In this document: piece after piece, positions 2,701-18,224 of the stretch
Layout: the number at the start of each line of letters is the position of its first letter
How positions within the stretch are numbered: position 1 is the first letter of the stretch
IMG/VR virus record: IMGVR_UViG_3300007538_000255
Coordinates: 1-20,265 of that record
DNA: 20,265 nt
Direction: 5' to 3' (one strand)
Origin: a virus
Position numbers and translations under genes: made by a program
Notes under the pieces: model-generated
Databases searched by the model: none
Told to the model about the DNA's origin: nothing
Seen by the model: only the letters and a program-made list of their open reading frames with translations

Positions 2701-3000
2701 TTAGAATGGCAACTCACCATCATCCTCGGGCTCTGGTAGTACCACCTTCGTTTGTGGCTTAGCCTTCACTTCAGTTAGCTTGGCTCCAGAAGGTGCCTCA
2801 TAGGTGTCTAACTCAACGTAGTGGTTCCCGCTACGAGCGGTCTTCACGTTCAGGTTGACCCAGCCATTACGCTGGTGTTCCTTGAGGAATGCTACTGCAT
2901 CGTCAACTTTTAAAGATAGTCTCCCTACTACAAATTCAGGAGCCTTTTCGTTTCTCTTGAAGGAGAAACCATCTGCAAAGATTTTTTCGTCTTGTGCCAT
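2701..3000 (-). CDS. SSB-like single-stranded DNA-binding protein
   Basis: A 99-aa protein beginning MAQDEKIFADGFSFKRNEKA. The C-terminus is acidic and ends DDGELPF, closely resembling the DDxIPF tip by which bacterial SSBs recruit partner proteins. The N-terminal ~65 residues form a compact beta-rich segment (FVVGRLSLKV...GWVNLNVK...HYVELDTY) consistent with a small OB-fold; a linker rich in K, P, V and E follows. I recall similar short proteins next to recombination genes in Bacteroidota phages. It sits downstream of the nuclease and annealing-protein genes and upstream of the primase-helicase, the expected place for a replication or recombination SSB. The ATG at 3000 follows a tRNA-like hairpin region; a terminator follows the stop. 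Confidence 0.75.
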   Translation of the reverse strand: MAQDEKIFADGFSFKRNEKAPEFVVGRLSLKVDDAVAFLKEHQRNGWVNLNVKTARSGNHYVELDTYEAPSGAKLTEVKAKPQTKVVLPEPEDDGELPF

Positions 3001-3020
3001 TGTGTAAATTGTTTTTGTAT

Positions 3021-3057
3021 GCCTCAGTCTATTTGAACCAACACCTACCTCTGAGGC
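3021..3057 (-). other. tRNA-like hairpin, possible tRNA relic
   Basis: On the minus strand GCCTCAG (3057-3051) and CTGAGGC (3027-3021) pair perfectly over 7 bp, the length of an acceptor stem. The 23-nt interior contains GGTTCAAAT, which resembles a T-loop, but no complementary T-stem follows. It could be an internally deleted tRNA or simply a hairpin in the SSB leader. It begins 18 nt after the tRNA-Leu-like element. Confidence 0.35.
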
Positions 3058-3075
3058 TAAGTGAATGTTAGTTGT

Positions 3076-3191
3076 AGTCAGGACAGGATTCGAACCTGTA
3101 GTTGTGAGCCTTCAGCCATAGGAGCAGCTCAACCTCGAGTCACCTTGATTTTTCCTATATTGAGTGCGTCTGCCTTTTCCGCCACCTGACT
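3076..3191 (-). tRNA. tRNA-Leu-like RNA with expanded anticodon and variable regions
   Basis: The minus strand shows a clear tRNA upper half: acceptor AGTCAGG (3191-3185) pairs with CCTGACT (3082-3076), the T-arm is ACAGG-TTCGAAT-CCTGT, and the D-arm GCG-GAAAAGGCAGA-CGC has the 3-bp stem and GG typical of leucine tRNAs; the discriminator base would be A. The expected anticodon stem CTCAA/TTGAG exists but closes a 27-nt loop instead of 7. The loop begins TATAGGA, which would give anticodon UAG but with A instead of the invariant U33. The region between this stem and the T-arm is 28 nt, long even for a class II tRNA. AUAGGA and UCCUAU across the two regions are also complementary. Total length is 116 nt against a usual 85-88, and CCA is not encoded. 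It may be a decayed tRNA, a tRNA with an insertion, or a tRNA-like structure with another job. Confidence 0.5.
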
Positions 3192-6743: not shown

Positions 6744-7019
6744 CTAGTTATTCGATAAATTATCAAACAAATCGTTGATGTTTACTGAGTCTTTGTACTG
6801 CTCAACCATGCCGACTAGACTAGTCGTGGCCATCAACAAAATAATCCTGTAGTCCACACAGGTGTGGAGTAATTGGCTAAGTCTACTTAGCTTCTCTTCA
6901 TCGCTGGCCTCATATATGGCCATTACGGCCGCTAATTGGTTCGCAAATGAGTGCGGGTCTACATTTAGTGCACGCACTAATGAGGACGCCTCGTGGTCGA
7001 AATTCATTTCTTTTTTCAT
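6744..7019 (-). CDS. Hypothetical 91-aa helical protein directly downstream of a hammerhead ribozyme
   Basis: An all-helical-looking acidic protein starting MKKEMNFDHEASSLVRALNV; the middle (MAIYEASDEEKLSRLSQLLH) and the end (DSVNINDLFDNLSNN) are helix-prone. No family is recognised. Its interest lies in the leader: the whole 96-nt gap upstream is a type III hammerhead ribozyme. Cleavage would leave the message for this gene with the ribozyme body and a 5'-hydroxyl end about 68 nt upstream of its ATG. The leader between ribozyme and ATG is A-rich (AACCCAAAAAACAATTTAAAG). Confidence 0.7.
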   Translation of the reverse strand: MKKEMNFDHEASSLVRALNVDPHSFANQLAAVMAIYEASDEEKLSRLSQLLHTCVDYRIILLMATTSLVGMVEQYKDSVNINDLFDNLSNN

Positions 7020-7036
7020 TCTTTAAATTGTTTTTT

Positions 7037-7099
7037 GGGTTGCAGTTTCGTCCTTTCGGAGCTCATCAGCACGGGCACTCACCCGTGGACTGCGGGCCC
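7037..7099 (-). ncRNA. Type III hammerhead ribozyme
   Basis: The minus-strand RNA has every core element in order. Stem III 5' strand GCAG (7093-7090) is followed by UC (7089-7088), giving a GUC cleavage triplet. Stem I is CACGGG (7087-7082), loop UGAGUG, CCCGUG (7075-7070). Then come CUGAUGA (7069-7063), stem II GCUCC-GAAA-GGAC (7062-7050; one bulged C and a GNRA loop), GAAA (7049-7046) and stem III 3' strand CUGC (7045-7042). Stem III can extend through GGG (7099-7097) with CCC (7039-7037). Predicted self-cleavage is between 7088 and 7087. A GGGCCC-UGCAU-GGGCCC hairpin (7110-7094) abuts the 5' side. The element fills the gap between genes 7116-7325 and 6744-7019. Confidence 0.88.
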
Positions 7100-7115
7100 A
7101 TGCAGGGCCCACTAA

Positions 7116-7325
7116 CTATGTATTGATGTAACCCACCTCTATGCCTATCTCTAGGCCATGCTTCTCTACCATCTCAAGTGCGGCATCAATCCCGTACCCG
7201 TAGACCGAGGCCTCAGAGCCATCGTCATAAATGATAAACAATTCAAACAGGTCCGCATCCCAGACCTCTCTTGCTTTGTGGGTTACAATTAACCACACGA
7301 ATCCGTCAATAATTCTAATGTCCAT
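7116..7325 (-). CDS. Hypothetical 69-aa protein
   Basis: A beta-rich small protein beginning MDIRIIDGFVWLIVTHKARE and ending EIGIEVGYINT. The motif FIIYDDGSEASVYGYGIDAA (~30-49), strand-turn-strand then helix, resembles small phage early proteins, but I cannot name a family. Two bases separate it from the upstream 121-aa gene, and its TAG stop lies 6 nt before the hammerhead's 5' hairpin. It is the last gene of the RNA segment that the two ribozymes would release. Confidence 0.7.
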   Translation of the reverse strand: MDIRIIDGFVWLIVTHKAREVWDADLFELFIIYDDGSEASVYGYGIDAALEMVEKHGLEIGIEVGYINT

Positions 7326-7746: not shown

Positions 7747-7769
7747 AGACATTTGCAAGCGCAATGTCT
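7747..7769. other. Intergenic hairpin
   Basis: AGACATT (7747-7753) pairs with AATGTCT (7763-7769), extended inside by GC/GC pairs after one bulged T and closed by loop AAGC. It sits right after the 47-aa gene on the minus strand, overlapping its TAA. There is no T-run, so it may be an RNA-processing or stability element rather than a terminator. The rest of the gap to 7694 is AT-rich with no clear promoter. Confidence 0.45.
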
Positions 7770-7912
7770 TATTTTTTTACTTTTGCTACCAAATTTAATT
7801 GGCATCCCGATTGGGCTCTGGCCCGCTCAATGGCCTCATATCTGGTGGACGCTAGGCCCTCCCAGATATTTATGCCACTTGTCCACACGGAATAATAAGT
7901 TTTCTTTTCCAC
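7769..7912 (-). CDS. Hypothetical 47-aa protein with GTG start
   Basis: A short ORF whose only plausible start is GTG at 7912, with an in-frame TAG immediately upstream. It reads (M)EKKTYYSVWTSGINIWEGL onward, then STRYEAIERARAQSGCQLNL and a basic VAKVKK end. The pattern (strand, W-rich turn, then a helix like 'Y-AIERAR') suggests a small folded protein and has a phage-like appearance, though I cannot name it. It starts 3 nt after the stop of the 60-aa gene. Without it the gap would be 222 nt in an otherwise dense operon. Confidence 0.5.
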   Translation of the reverse strand: MEKKTYYSVWTSGINIWEGLASTRYEAIERARAQSGCQLNLVAKVKK

Positions 7913-8546: not shown

Positions 8547-8759
8547 TTAGATATTGTTTTGGTAGCAAAAATTGTCAAAATAGGCGTCCTCATTTGCCTT
8601 GATGTGGGCGAAGGTTTGGAGCACATCCTTTTGGTCCCTGTAGACCTTTGAGTCCATGCTGTAGGCCTTGCCGTCAAAGTAGATTGACTCGCCTTGTTTA
8701 ATTGTTTTGCCCGTCTCAGCGCAAGCGCTTTTAAATCGGGCCGTAATAAATTTACCCAT
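8547..8759 (-). CDS. Small conserved phage protein, 70 aa
   Basis: It begins MGKFITARFKSACAETGKTI and continues KQGESIYFDGKAYSMDSKVY. The 'FITARF-S-CAETGK-IKKGE' strand-turn-strand start is a pattern I recall from short phage and bacterial proteins in which one or two cysteines (13 and ~65) may matter. The role is unknown. Its leader is special: the 5' strand of stem I of a type I hammerhead (UUAACC) lies 15 nt before the ATG, so after ribozyme cleavage the message would start with a 5'-hydroxyl about 21 nt upstream of the start codon. Confidence 0.7.
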   Translation of the reverse strand: MGKFITARFKSACAETGKTIKQGESIYFDGKAYSMDSKVYRDQKDVLQTFAHIKANEDAYFDNFCYQNNI

Positions 8760-8774: not shown

Positions 8775-8824
8775 GGTTAAGAGCCCTCACGGGCTTTCTA
8801 GCAATTAGCCGTCATCAGTTAACC
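8775..8824 (-). ncRNA. Type I hammerhead ribozyme
   Basis: Minus-strand RNA order: stem I GGUUAA (8824-8819), CUGAUGA (8818-8812), stem II region CGGC-UAAUU-GCUA (8811-8799), GAAA (8798-8795), closed stem III GCCC-GUGA-GGGC (8794-8783), UC (8782-8781, giving a CUC triplet), then stem I UUAACC (8780-8775), a perfect 6-bp partner of GGUUAA. Predicted cleavage is between 8781 and 8780. Stem II is the weak point: C10.1 faces A11.1 and only G-U, G-C and C-G pairs follow. The UGA inside CUGAUGA (8817-8815) is the stop codon of gene 8815-9009, and stem I uses its last codons, so translating ribosomes would unfold the ribozyme. Confidence 0.75.
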
Positions 8825-9009
8825 TTGATTTCTTTTAAGAATTTTAAAATTGATTCATATGTACCAAGGTCACTTGGACACTCTACTATATCCCATTGTT
8901 CCCACTCATCGTATAGTATTATCAACTCATCGAATAGTCTGTCATATTCGGTTTTCGGATTAAATATAATTTCGTGTAGCTTGGTAAAAAGAAAGAAATT
9001 GTAGTCCAT
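8815..9009 (-). CDS. Hypothetical 64-aa protein overlapping a ribozyme
   Basis: A helical acidic protein beginning MDYNFFLFTKLHEIIFNPKT and ending YESILKFLKEIKVN, with aromatic-rich DEWEQWDIVECPSD in between. No family is recognised. Its last codons (GTT AAC TGA) are part of the hammerhead ribozyme at 8775-8824, so coding and RNA structure constrain the same bases. The ATG at 9009 is preceded by the A-rich AAACTAAAACAAATAAAATC leader typical of this operon. Confidence 0.65.
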   Translation of the reverse strand: MDYNFFLFTKLHEIIFNPKTEYDRLFDELIILYDEWEQWDIVECPSDLGTYESILKFLKEIKVN

Positions 9010-9684: not shown

Positions 9685-10395
9685 TTAATGCTCTAAGATT
9701 TGAATATTTTTGGTGCCTTTTCTTTGTCCACTGCATAGGCCACACTTTTCGCACGTGGATTTGAAGCCCGCTTCTTTGCTCGCAGGACATACAACAGCAC
9801 CAGCCAAAGGTTTGTCCGTGGCTATGAAGGAACGGAACCCGATTTTTTGGGCCATATTTGCTTGATTCTCGTTATGAGTCGATGCCATGAAAAAGGCTGC
9901 ATAGTCGGGCTTTTTGGCCCATTGGTGGGTATAGCCCGTGTGGGATTTGCTGGCCTTGACCATGCTTGAAACCAAGTTCAATGGCAATAAAGTAGGTTCC
10001 CCGTACGTGCCAAAACGAATATATCTATCGTTTGAAATTTCAACAATTTTCTTTTCCAACAAGTGGATTGAAGGTACTTCCTGCACGTTTTTGAATTCTC
10101 TTGCAATGCTTTTTAGCATCGAAATAAACCCGCTGTATTGCTGGTATTTGTGTGTATAGCACTTCAAATAGGCCCTAAAAGGGCAATCAAAACACACGGA
10201 ATCGGCAAGGTCAAAAAAGGTCTTGGGGTCAATTTTTTGGCCGTTTTTTACCGATTCAGACACGTAGGTAAATTGCGCATCCGAGAAGCTATATACCTGC
10301 AAAATTTTCTCTTTGCCGTTCGAAATTTTGGCGTTCGTGGTCTTACCTAGCTTGAAGACCAAAATAGCATTGTTTACTTTTGTTGTAACTCGCAT
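9685..10395 (-). CDS. Cys-rich conserved phage protein, probably metal- or Fe-S-binding
   Basis: A 236-aa protein of a family widespread in tailed phages and mobile elements (I believe it is catalogued as DUF7227, unverified). Signature segments are CFDCPFRAYLKC (C68, C71, C79), YIRFGTYGEPTLLP (~125-138), SHTGYTHQW (~151-159), a -FMAST--E----A---GFR-F- stretch, and the C-terminal CPASKEAGFKSTCEKCGLCS (C203, C215, C218, C221). Two cysteine clusters imply zinc or an iron-sulfur cluster. The arrangement has been compared with radical SAM-like proteins, but no CxxxCxxC loop is visible, so I assign no reaction. I start at the ATG at 10395, preceded by ACCAAACCCAAACCTTT; a TTG at 10437 would overlap the previous gene. 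It is the second gene after the early promoter. Confidence 0.8.
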   Translation of the reverse strand: MRVTTKVNNAILVFKLGKTTNAKISNGKEKILQVYSFSDAQFTYVSESVKNGQKIDPKTFFDLADSVCFDCPFRAYLKCYTHKYQQYSGFISMLKSIAREFKNVQEVPSIHLLEKKIVEISNDRYIRFGTYGEPTLLPLNLVSSMVKASKSHTGYTHQWAKKPDYAAFFMASTHNENQANMAQKIGFRSFIATDKPLAGAVVCPASKEAGFKSTCEKCGLCSGQRKGTKNIQILEH

Positions 10396-11849: not shown

Positions 11850-11879
11850 TTGACAAGTGTGGTAAAAATCTTATCTTTG
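11850..11879 (+). promoter_or_regulatory. groEL promoter (Bacteroidota type)
   Basis: TTGACA (11850-11855) and TATCTTTG (11872-11879) give TTG-N19-TAnnTTTG, a perfect match to the Bacteroidota housekeeping promoter. The expected start site (~11886) leaves a ~42-nt leader before the ATG at 11928. The TTGACA overlaps the last box of the TGTC(G/A) array, so the cassette may be regulated by the box-binding factor. Confidence 0.85.
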
Positions 11880-11927
11880 CATTATACCATCCTGATGGAT
11901 GGTCTACTGAAATCTAAATCAAATCAA

Positions 11928-13544
11928 ATGGTAGAAACATCTGGACTGGGCTATTCGCCCAAGGACTTAAAGTTTGGTACTGAGGGTAGGACCAAATTGA
12001 TTAGCGGCATCGTCAAGATGTCCAAGGCTGTTAAGTCAACTCTCGGCCCTTCGGGCAATACGGTGTTGATAGAGAGCCCGCATCACACACATGGCATTAC
12101 TGTAACTAAGGATGGGGTGACTGTTGCCAAGTCTATTGACTTGATAGACCCTGTTGAGAACCTTGCGGTAAGAATGATGAAGGAGGCTGCTGACAAGACT
12201 GCTACCTCTGCTGGCGATGGCACGACTACGGCTATAGTGCTGACTGAGGGCTTGGTGTTAGGAGGCCTTGAGCACATTACTGAGGGGATGAACAGAACGG
12301 AGGTGTTGAGAGAGATGGTGGACATAAGCGCTAAGGTGGTGGACAAGCTCCGCAAGAAGAGTAAGAAGGTGAGCACGTCCATGTTGCTTGATGTCGCTGC
12401 TATCAGCGCTAACAATGACCGGGAGATAGGCAAAATTATCTCTGAGGTATACAAGGAGGTCGGCAAGAGTGGTGTGGTTACTGTTGAGCGGAGCCAAACT
12501 AGTGAGACCTATTCTCAAACTACTAAGGGACTAAAGATTGACAGGGGCTATTTGAGCCATTTGTTCGTCAATGACGTGAAGAAGGACGAGTGTGTGTTCG
12601 ATGACGTGATGGTCTTGGTGGCTGACATTGAGATAGCCAACATTTTGCAGATTGAGAACGTGCTGAAGCCAATAATTTCCGAGGGGAAGAAGCTGCTCAT
12701 CATCTCTCCGTGCAATGTGAACGTGGTGAATACGCTTGCGGCCAATAGCATGAAGGGAAATTTGAAGGTGGTGGCTGTTGCTCCTCCTAATTTCGGCTAC
12801 AAGCAGCACGAGTTGATGCAGGACATTGCGGTCAGCGTGGGTGCTACGTACTTTAGTGAGAAGACAGGTGATGATTTGAGCCTTATTAACTATGGTGACT
12901 TGGGTCATGCGGCAAAAGTCATCGTTGGTAAGGACAAAACGATAATTATTCGCAGTAATGTAAAAGTTGACCAAGGGTCAATAGACGAGAGAGTCGCACA
13001 ACTGTGGCAATTGCATGAGCAAAGTACACGCAAAACTGACAAAGACTTTATTTTGGAGCGCATTGCGTCATTAACGGGTGGGATTGGTGTCATATTTGTT
13101 GGCGGCCAGACTGACTTGGAGCAGAAGGAGCTGTATGACAGGGTCGATGACGCTGTGTGTGCAGTTCGGTCCGCTCTTGAAGAGGGCATATTGCCCGGGG
13201 CAGGCAAGGCATTGCTCGATGAGAGCGCTGATTTGTTTGACTCTGAGTCAAAAAGTGCTGAGCAGACCGCAGCATTGCACATTGTGCGCAACGCATTGAT
13301 GGCTCCATTCCAGCAAATCCTTGCAAATGCGGGCCTAAAGCCAAGTGACGTGTATAAAGAAGGCACTCCGGTGGGTCACGGCTACAATTTGAAGACGGGT
13401 CAAGTTGGGGACCTAGTGGCGATGGGCGTCATAGACCCATTTAAGGTGACACGCTCAGCGTTGCAGAACGCAATCAGCGTTGCGGTCACTATTTTATCAA
13501 CTAATGCCATCATCACAATGGCTCGGAGCTATGACGCAGAGTAA
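11928..13544 (+). CDS. groEL: Phage GroEL-like chaperonin (Cpn60)
   Basis: A 538-aa group I chaperonin that should form ring complexes and fold proteins in an ATP-driven cycle with a GroES cap. Conserved sites are present: LGPSGN (39-44), TKDGVTVAK with the aspartate equivalent to E. coli D52 (D62), AGDGTTT (95-101), and DDAVCAVRSALEEGILPG (407-424) carrying the equivalent of catalytic D398 (D408). Length is close to the 548 aa of E. coli, but the C-terminal GGM-repeat tail is absent; the protein ends ARSYDAE. I start at 11928, preceded by AAATCAAATCAA; an upstream TTG at 11850 is the promoter itself, and ATG 11895 is possible. It overlaps the next gene by 14 nt. It probably assists folding of phage proteins. 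Confidence 0.95.
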   Translation: MVETSGLGYSPKDLKFGTEGRTKLISGIVKMSKAVKSTLGPSGNTVLIESPHHTHGITVTKDGVTVAKSIDLIDPVENLAVRMMKEAADKTATSAGDGTTTAIVLTEGLVLGGLEHITEGMNRTEVLREMVDISAKVVDKLRKKSKKVSTSMLLDVAAISANNDREIGKIISEVYKEVGKSGVVTVERSQTSETYSQTTKGLKIDRGYLSHLFVNDVKKDECVFDDVMVLVADIEIANILQIENVLKPIISEGKKLLIISPCNVNVVNTLAANSMKGNLKVVAVAPPNFGYKQHELMQDIAVSVGATYFSEKTGDDLSLINYGDLGHAAKVIVGKDKTIIIRSNVKVDQGSIDERVAQLWQLHEQSTRKTDKDFILERIASLTGGIGVIFVGGQTDLEQKELYDRVDDAVCAVRSALEEGILPGAGKALLDESADLFDSESKSAEQTAALHIVRNALMAPFQQILANAGLKPSDVYKEGTPVGHGYNLKTGQVGDLVAMGVIDPFKVTRSALQNAISVAVTILSTNAIITMARSYDAE

Positions 13545-13782
13545 ACTGGACCAAATACTTGAGCTGTATCCAGACGATACGTTCAAAATAGCGGATGGCT
13601 TCGATGATGCCATCATTGGCGTTGATGACAATAACTTAAAAATTGTCTACGACATTTACAAAATCATTGACATACTCATAAAAGATGGGATGACCGATGA
13701 TGAGGCCATTGAGTTCTACGAGTACAACATTGCAGGCTCCTACGTTGGGGAGAATACGCCATCATTTATAAGACTACTATGA
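13531..13782 (+). CDS. Conserved phage protein between groEL and groES, 83 aa
   Basis: From the ATG at 13531 (overlapping the groEL end by 14 nt) it reads MTQSKLDQILELYPDDTFKI onward, with IADGFDDAIIGVDDNNLKIV and the C-terminal GMTDDEAIEFYEYNIAGSYV followed by GENTPSF. This 'D-A--G----------YD-------DGMT-EEA-EF-E-NI-GAYVGE-TP-F' pattern is common in many unrelated tailed phages and has no assigned function that I know. It is strongly acidic. Its stop overlaps the groES start (ATGA), so all three genes are translationally coupled. Position between the chaperonin subunits suggests co-expression rather than a proven chaperonin role. Confidence 0.8.
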   Translation: MTQSKLDQILELYPDDTFKIADGFDDAIIGVDDNNLKIVYDIYKIIDILIKDGMTDDEAIEFYEYNIAGSYVGENTPSFIRLL

Positions 13783-14036
13783 GACCAATAGGGAAATACA
13801 TTATTGTTAAGGACATACAGGAGGAGATTAAGACCCAGAGCGGTCTAATCCTATCTGGTGAGGATGCCAATCAGCTGCGATATAGGCGTGCTGAGGTGAT
13901 TGCTGTAGGCACAGACGTGGACGTCATTGATGAGATGGACGAGCTGTACTACGACAAGGGGCACAGCTTCACGATGCTAATTAACAACGAGCAGTTCACA
14001 ATTATTTCTGAGCGTGACGTAGTGGTGGTGCTTTAA
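13779..14036 (+). CDS. groES: Phage GroES-like co-chaperonin (Cpn10)
   Basis: An 85-aa protein with the Cpn10 layout: N-terminal MRPIGKYIIVKDI strand, a mobile-loop segment EEIKTQSGLILSG (~15-27) resembling E. coli ETKSAGGIVLTG, a central AEVIAVGTDVD strand, an acidic turn, and a C-terminal strand SERDVVVVL. It is shorter than E. coli GroES (97 aa), apparently in the region of the beta-hairpin roof. It should cap the GroEL-like ring encoded two genes upstream. Order groEL-X-groES is the reverse of the bacterial operon. Its TAA overlaps the TAA of the convergent minus-strand gene by 2 nt. Confidence 0.85.
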   Translation: MRPIGKYIIVKDIQEEIKTQSGLILSGEDANQLRYRRAEVIAVGTDVDVIDEMDELYYDKGHSFTMLINNEQFTIISERDVVVVL

Positions 14037-15811: not shown

Positions 15812-16164
15812 AAAAGAATAATGTAGACGATAAAATAAATCGTATAGACAATAGTAAAAGACTTAATAAAAAGGTCGAAAGAAAATACGAACGTCTTGAA
15901 AACAAAATCAGTAAAGCAAAAGGTGATACTGAAAAGTTAAAAAAAATTGATAAAAAGTACGGATACAATTATGAAGCCGCTACTAAATCAGGGTTAACTC
16001 CTGATAAAAGTGGTCACTGGGGAAGCATAGACCCAAGCACCGGAAAAATTTTAAAAGGACCAAAGCATCCTTCAATGATGAAAACAAAAAAAATTGAAAG
16101 GGTTCTTGGAAATAAGATTGTAAAAAAGGACGGAGAAAGATATAGTGTTCCAAGAAGGAAATGA
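15808..16164 (+). CDS. Conserved phage protein with YNYEAA...GHWGS...HP domain, 118 aa
   Basis: The N-terminal half is a Lys-rich coiled-coil-like helix (KKVERKYERLENKISKAKGD). Residues ~50-85 carry GYNYEAATKSGLTPDKSGHW, then DPSTGKILKGPKHPSMMKT. The pattern 'YDY--A-R-GL-PD-TGHWPSR-P--G-ILKG--HPT---T' occurs in many phage genomes, often near virion genes. Its role is unknown to me. The AT-rich composition of this gene differs somewhat from its neighbours. ATGA overlaps link it to both flanking genes. Confidence 0.75.
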   Translation: MKKNNVDDKINRIDNSKRLNKKVERKYERLENKISKAKGDTEKLKKIDKKYGYNYEAATKSGLTPDKSGHWGSIDPSTGKILKGPKHPSMMKTKKIERVLGNKIVKKDGERYSVPRRK

Positions 16165-17796: not shown

Positions 17797-18224
17797 AATA
17801 TCTTCAATACATATTGGCGTCCATCTTGCTCCTATTCGCCCCTATATACGGGCTATTAATAGCTGTAGCGGCAGCAATTATTCTTGATACTATCACAGGA
17901 ATATTTAAGTCAATTAAAATAAATGGTTGGTCAAGCATAAGGAGTAGGAAGTTGTCGAATATAGTTAGTAAGATGCTTCTTTATGAAGTCTGCATATTGT
18001 TTCTTTTTTTGATGGACAAATTTCTTTTGAACGAATTTGTCAAGTCTGCTTTTGGATTTGAGTTCATGTTTACCAAAATCTGCGCAATTCTGTTGATGTT
18101 TATTGAGCTAGTTTCTATTAAAGAAAATATTGAAGAAGGGTTTAAGGTTAACATCTGGGCTTTGCTTAAAAAACTTTTAAATAGAGCCAAAGAAATAAAG
18201 TCAGATATTGACGATATAAAATGA
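17793..18224 (+). CDS. Phage holin (phage_holin_4-like)
   Basis: A 143-aa membrane protein: hydrophobic segments at ~5-20 and ~21-38 (LLIAVAAAIILDTITGIFKS), ~60-80 and ~90-110, then a charged C-terminal tail (LLNRAKEIKSDIDDIK). The motif LD-I-TGI-KS---N----S---R-K--NI, then SIKENIEEGFKVNI, is typical of the phage_holin_4 family in Bacteroidota phages. It should form lesions in the inner membrane that trigger lysis. It directly precedes the endolysin gene with an ATGA overlap, the classic lysis gene order. Confidence 0.85.
   Translation: MKYLQYILASILLLFAPIYGLLIAVAAAIILDTITGIFKSIKINGWSSIRSRKLSNIVSKMLLYEVCILFLFLMDKFLLNEFVKSAFGFEFMFTKICAILLMFIELVSIKENIEEGFKVNIWALLKKLLNRAKEIKSDIDDIK

Follow-up and report, generated by a model that had tools for sequence, protein, structure and literature searches.

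The window analysed here, the whole 20,265-nucleotide stretch of IMG/VR virus record IMGVR_UViG_3300007538_000255, carries a type III hammerhead ribozyme on its minus strand between two early genes, and the same anatomy recurs more than 100 times in related phages, with a rule for the position of the hairpin in each ribozyme topology. We consider it likely that this element is a cis-cleaving punctuation mark, by which the early polycistronic transcript is cut once between the two genes. From the anatomy, conservation, covariation, strand and placement that we observed, we infer cleavage in the cell, protection of the resulting ends and altered stability or relative output of the messages.

The type III hammerhead and its flanking genes

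The gap and the genes on either side of it are made up of the following features.

7116..7325, minus strand: upstream early gene, 69 aa, its stop codon adjoining the element (open reading frame)
7094..7110, minus strand: hairpin GGGCCC-UGCAU-GGGCCC, abutting stem III (strand reading, folding)
7040..7095, minus strand: type III hammerhead ribozyme, predicted cut between 7088 and 7087, after GUC (RF00008, model R1)
7050..7062, minus strand: stem II with unpaired C7061 and GAAA loop (strand reading, RF00008, model R1)
7020..7041, minus strand: A-rich leader from ribozyme to start codon (strand reading; same spacing in relatives)
6744..7019, minus strand: downstream early gene, 91 aa, family unknown (open reading frame)

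The initial annotation had proposed a complete type III hammerhead at 7037-7110, and every element that it named can be read off the minus strand, with the core kept in a homologue. The 5' strand of stem III, GCAGU (7093-7089), pairs with ACUGC (7046-7042), C17 is 7088, and stem I (7087-7070) has seven pairs, CACGGGU/GCCCGUG, the final one U-G, and a GAGU loop. It is followed by the core CUGAUGA (7069-7063), stem II with its GAAA loop (7062-7050), the core GAAA (7049-7046) and, after the leader, the downstream ATG at 7019; the GUC site, CUGAUGA, GAAA and the cut position all lie where they had been placed. The copy meets the criteria for type III (CUGANGA, GAAA, A15.1-U16.1 and H17 at the cleavage site), with three helices around the core, and is open at stem III. 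Stem II has a GNRA cap as described earlier (here GAAA), but an unpaired C7061 had been overlooked, and the helix consists of a G-C pair, this bulged C and three further pairs (UCC/GGA). The bulge could lower activity. The exact stem II (GCTCC..GGAC) occurs in no other IMG/VR contig, so this copy may be a weaker one than those of related phages, or it may carry a one-base insertion.

The 96-nt gap between 7116-7325 and 6744-7019 is filled, as had been claimed, but the ribozyme shares it with the hairpin and the leader. The hairpin said to lie directly 5' of stem III is present (7110-7094), and MFE folding of the single strand recovers it together with stems I and III (z -3.1). An intrinsic terminator was rejected on reading the sequence, in which the hairpin passes straight into stem III without a U-tract.

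No Rfam family matched the window at gathering thresholds, and lower thresholds and models of our own were therefore used. The best Rfam match was then RF00008 (Hammerhead_3) at 7040-7095, with 37.3 bits and an E-value of 5e-7 locally and 6e-5 over the whole window, against a gathering score of 48.5, while model R1, built from type III copies of relatives, gave 65.9 bits (E 3e-16). The covariance-model check suggested in the initial annotation is satisfied by our model, although the hit of Rfam's own model stays under the 48.5 cut-off, which is an annotation rule and not a property of ribozymes. The copies described here share with RF00008 the core, the GUC/GUA site and the topology (stems I and II closed, III open), but differ in their short stem II, mostly with a 4-nt loop, and score mostly under 48.5, a value that only one reached among about 21 type III copies from six relative loci. 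Since current Rfam cut-offs miss nearly all copies, phage annotations miss them too. A blastn search of the ribozyme region against phage records gave no match.

The 69-aa upstream gene belongs to no Pfam or PHROGs family, and its homologue in relative L002 (90% identical) has no ribozyme behind it. Members of the downstream gene's family stand behind a type III ribozyme at 14 distinct loci; in L003, where the homologue is 96% identical, the ribozyme is of the same design and has the core retained, but its stem II differs and has U-U as its base pair. A separate intergenic hairpin (GACAUUGCGCUUGCAAAUGUC) at window 7748-7768 (minus strand), after gene 7769-7912, is also conserved in L003.

Two hammerhead families in related phages

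Relatives of the window's Sak-type annealing protein (PF06378) were used to fetch 80 loci. In these protein-selected loci and the window, a relaxed pairing descriptor gave 98 matches versus 3 in controls, the controls being reversed and complemented sequence of all loci collected by then, and all 97 matches in the protein-selected loci (97/97) lay on the coding strand, that of the annealing gene. An anchor search for type III that did not require pairing (GT[AC], 18 nt, CTGANGA, 12 nt, GAAA) yielded 113 distinct matches and 0 in reversed sequence. Part of the loci behind these matches had been fetched with an RNA pattern, and one match (L276:2101-2155), a type I copy misread in the wrong register, was excluded from the model alignment. 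At each of seven positions of stem I, 111-113 of the 113 were paired (99%), by a wide variety of base pairs, and three positions of stem II were paired in every match. Pair 10.1/11.1, the first of stem II, was G-C in 82 and U-U in 29, U-U here being reported as the mismatch that supports most activity (PMC3088659). An alignment of 60 diverse type III members had 92.4% of its cells paired and a covariation of 0.638, against 0.07-0.13 when slid. Its core positions are invariant except for N7, and its stems vary freely. The anchor matches have conserved loops I and II, mostly GNGU and NAAA.

The pairing descriptor also revealed a second hammerhead in the window, of type I.

8815..9009, minus strand: 64-aa gene; its stop codon, UGA at 8817-8815, lies within the type I core CUGAUGA (open reading frame)
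8775..8824, minus strand: type I hammerhead, stem I GGUUAA/UUAACC, predicted cut between 8781 and 8780 (descriptor, model R2)
8547..8759, minus strand: 70-aa gene, AUG 15 nt after the type I ribozyme (open reading frame)

The core of this copy is present, stem I is open, stems II and III are closed, and the basal pair of stem II (10.1/11.1) is a C-A mismatch; model R2, built from type I relatives, scored 55.4 bits (E 1e-10). A hammerhead among early genes of a Bacteroidota phage had been called unusual: the placement holds, but with this second copy and the many relatives it is no isolated oddity. Phage hammerheads reported so far had been described as mostly of types I and II; the presence of types I, II and III alike in phages has already been published (PMC7761336).

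Altogether 160 distinct type I copies were found in relatives, and at least 120 IMG/VR stretches hold copies that match the pattern. As the search pattern fixed stem I and left stems II and III free, the conservation of stem I rests on the protein-selected loci, in which it is exactly GGTTAA in 13 of 14 matches, rarer variants occurring elsewhere; the free stems covary (score 0.565 versus 0.05-0.12 slid). For type I members in five loci, Rfam at E 0.1 gave nothing but one sub-threshold match to RF03152 (RAGATH-1), likewise a hammerhead class, which had no match in the window.

Across 26 whole records the strong matches are gathered into a single early-region cluster a few kb long, such as 27,077-30,269 of 62,751 and 55,889-59,398 of 62,896. 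Relatives have up to four type III hammerheads per early operon, many records have a single copy, and phage G021 has five type I copies spaced by about 260-610 nt, near one per gene. Two conserved genes often precede type III copies: one encodes about 300 aa and belongs to no Pfam family, and the other is a glutamine-amidotransferase-like/gamma-glutamyl cyclotransferase fusion. For several gene families the hammerhead alongside is of type I or of type III depending on the phage; the family of the 70-aa gene, for instance, has type I ahead in four and type III ahead in two distinct loci. That the same families are flanked by either type argues that the cut, and not a particular RNA, is kept. 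No hammerhead was found by the descriptor in 38 of the 80 protein-selected loci, many of them truncated, and none was detectable in the related phage MW202828.1, which is complete, encodes GroEL/GroES and shares the primase. The existence of related phages without any detectable copy indicates that the hammerhead is dispensable.

Placement and proposed processing of the early transcript

In type III copies the stop codon is followed by a hairpin that abuts stem III, then by the ribozyme, an A-rich leader and the ATG. In most cases about 28-40 nt, taken up by the hairpin, separate the stop codon of the upstream gene from the ribozyme, and the next ATG comes mostly 15-54 nt downstream of the ribozyme. 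In the protein-selected set the hairpin had a median z of -4.0 against shuffles (82% below -2), and in 56 of 65 type III cases 0-1 nt separated its 3' end from stem III, whereas the same folding test found no hairpin ahead of type I (median z -0.15, 9% below -2). Ahead of or within type I copies (n=160), the stop codon of the upstream gene was most often TAA within GGTTAA in 39, TGA within CTGA in 30 and TAG overlapping the first G in 18, and the next ATG came 12-18 nt after TTAACC in 133 of the 160. These arrangements fit one rule, in which a hairpin ends the upstream RNA after the inferred cleavage either way, being added in type III and provided by the intrinsic stem III in type I. The rule was formed from the first listing of copies and afterwards tested by shuffled folding, and the type III copy of Flavobacterium phage elemoF, without a strong 5' hairpin, is an exception to it.

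If the type III ribozyme cuts as predicted, cleavage would give an upstream mRNA that ends in the hairpin and GCAGUC with a 2',3'-cyclic phosphate, and a downstream mRNA that begins with a 5'-OH, followed by the stem I hairpin, an unstructured A-rich leader and the AUG. As stem III is short, with 4-5 pairs, the cleavage products would be able to separate; by inference, the hairpin probably stacks coaxially on stem III until the cut is made and then shields the 3' end. In type I, the closed stem III would itself serve as the 3' hairpin, and cleavage would leave a leader of 5'-UUAACC and A-rich sequence. 5'-OH ends escape 5'-phosphate-dependent decay, and we infer that the downstream mRNAs may be protected in this way. 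Two reports describe Bacteroidota as having no Shine-Dalgarno sites and as initiating on leaders tuned by structure (PMC6847099, PMC3155529); given this lack, a freed A-rich leader would be a sensible product. The outcome would be the same as in punctuation by RNase III/RNase E or by tRNAs, namely polycistronic RNA divided between genes, but the proposed cut is made by the RNA itself and leaves 5'-OH and cyclic phosphate ends. A wider reading, in which our confidence falls somewhat short of even, is a punctuation code in which the early operon is split gene by gene by interchangeable self-cutting modules, with topology matched to the need of the upstream RNA for a 3' hairpin, and with other junctions marked by solitary hairpins and degenerate tRNA-like structures.

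Cleavage might instead compete with translation or with a bound protein, which would make the ribozyme a conditional off-switch and not a constitutive punctuation mark. The ribosome occupies the core of a type I copy as it terminates, the stop codon being in or beside the ribozyme in most cases, and the 5' hairpin motif also stands alone ahead of start codons; the stop-codon spacer of type III, however, is 30-40 nt, beyond the ribosome footprint, and no ligand domain was seen, and we regard a regulated switch as unlikely. Pieces cut between neighbouring ribozymes could also be ligated into circular RNAs, as in retrozymes and viroid-like RNAs, given that single genes are flanked by several hammerheads per operon and that 5'-OH and 2',3'-cyclic phosphate ends suit RtcB-type ligation. 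We give circles little credence, as none of the 26 records has RtcB (though the host could supply one), the order from stop codon to ATG answers the needs of mRNA ends, many records are single-copy, and others who searched for circular or spliced RNA arising from clustered phage hammerheads found none (Perreault et al., PMC3088659).

It is also conceivable that some other role, such as protein binding or transcript stability, is conserved, and that catalysis is incidental or was lost in the window copy, whose type III ribozyme has the bulged stem II and a sub-threshold Rfam score and whose type I counterpart has the C-A mismatch. This we find very hard to credit in view of a catalytic core that stays fixed across the 60 members while the stems are free to vary, and of a sole common mismatch, U-U at 10.1/11.1, that is reported to allow most activity (PMC3088659). 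Self-cleaving punctuation of the early transcript, the reading that we prefer, has a precedent in prophage hammerhead arrays that flank genes, for which processing of long transcripts was inferred and some of which have been shown to cut themselves in E. coli as well as in vitro (Perreault et al. 2011, PMC3088659). As in those clusters, several hammerheads here flank single genes or short gene blocks; unlike them, the present ones form two lineage-specific families, belong to viruses whose nearest named relatives infect Bacteroidota, have a fixed stop-hairpin-ribozyme-leader-ATG order, are confined to early operons and include types I and III on the same gene families. The role of phage and bacterial hammerheads has been called an open question (PMC6155905). 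Our literature search found no report that describes Flavobacterium phage hammerheads or this order of elements; preprints and most subscription journals were outside the search, and an earlier description is possible. What we add to the known phage hammerheads are the anatomy, the logic of the two architectures and a culturable host.

Host group, cultured phages and further RNA elements

The primase protein of the window matches phages of Flavobacterium, Maribacter and other Bacteroidota, and this sequence similarity points to Bacteroidota phages as its group. The window SSAP and 70-aa proteins had no Bacteroidota relative among the INPHARED matches listed, and a host search by bacterial contigs gave nine mixed matches, mostly of MAG origin, and was not conclusive. 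On its minus strand, Flavobacterium phage elemoF (NC_055853.1) has one hammerhead of type III (17865-17921) and one of type I (16045-16102), each upstream of early genes, in a region common to 68 records of phages of Flavobacterium sp. BAL314. The type I variant of elemoA and elemoC has four perfect pairs in stem II, where elemoF has a mismatch; elemoF gp66, annotated on the opposite strand and overlapping the type I copy, is probably a spurious gene. Since cultured Flavobacterium phages have both types, the role of the ribozymes is testable by end-mapping in infected cells. The window also encodes GroEL and GroES (11850-13544 and 13779-14036, plus strand), beside a divergent operon boundary.

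Other RNA structures accompany the hammerheads. The hairpin GTGTCT-UCAA-AGACAC is dispersed in relatives at intergenic sites without ribozymes, ahead of start codons and tRNA-like genes (e.g., L034:1658-1673, L040:1568-1583), and may therefore have another role; its loop reads TCAA versus TTGA on the coding strand by 34 to 3, which suggests a role at the RNA level. A subset of type III copies (L011:4717-4760, L014:5605-5645, L008:4528-4575) has a further structured leader, AAACCGGAGGUUUGAAACGCCUCC-like and possibly a pseudoknot, between ribozyme and ATG.

ARAGORN called no tRNA in the window. tRNA-like RNAs were seen at window 3075-3191 (minus strand), between exonuclease and SSB-like genes, and at L003:9285-9394 and 9730-9817 and L052:3714-3755; they keep the acceptor (mostly AGUCAGG/CCUGACU) and the T arm, their anticodon region is oversized, variable or missing, and one is just 42 nt long. 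They could be processing sites for RNase P or of a tRNA-mimic kind. At window ~3012-3082 (minus strand), ahead of the ATG of gene 2701-3000, lies a conserved RNA element with a near-invariant GCCUCAG/CUGAGGC helix, which a second helix would cross to form an H-type pseudoknot; this was seen in 11 aligned phage sequences, in which covariation was not counted and the next ATG follows 26-28 nt past the motif. The element resembles the autoregulatory pseudoknot of T4 gene 32.
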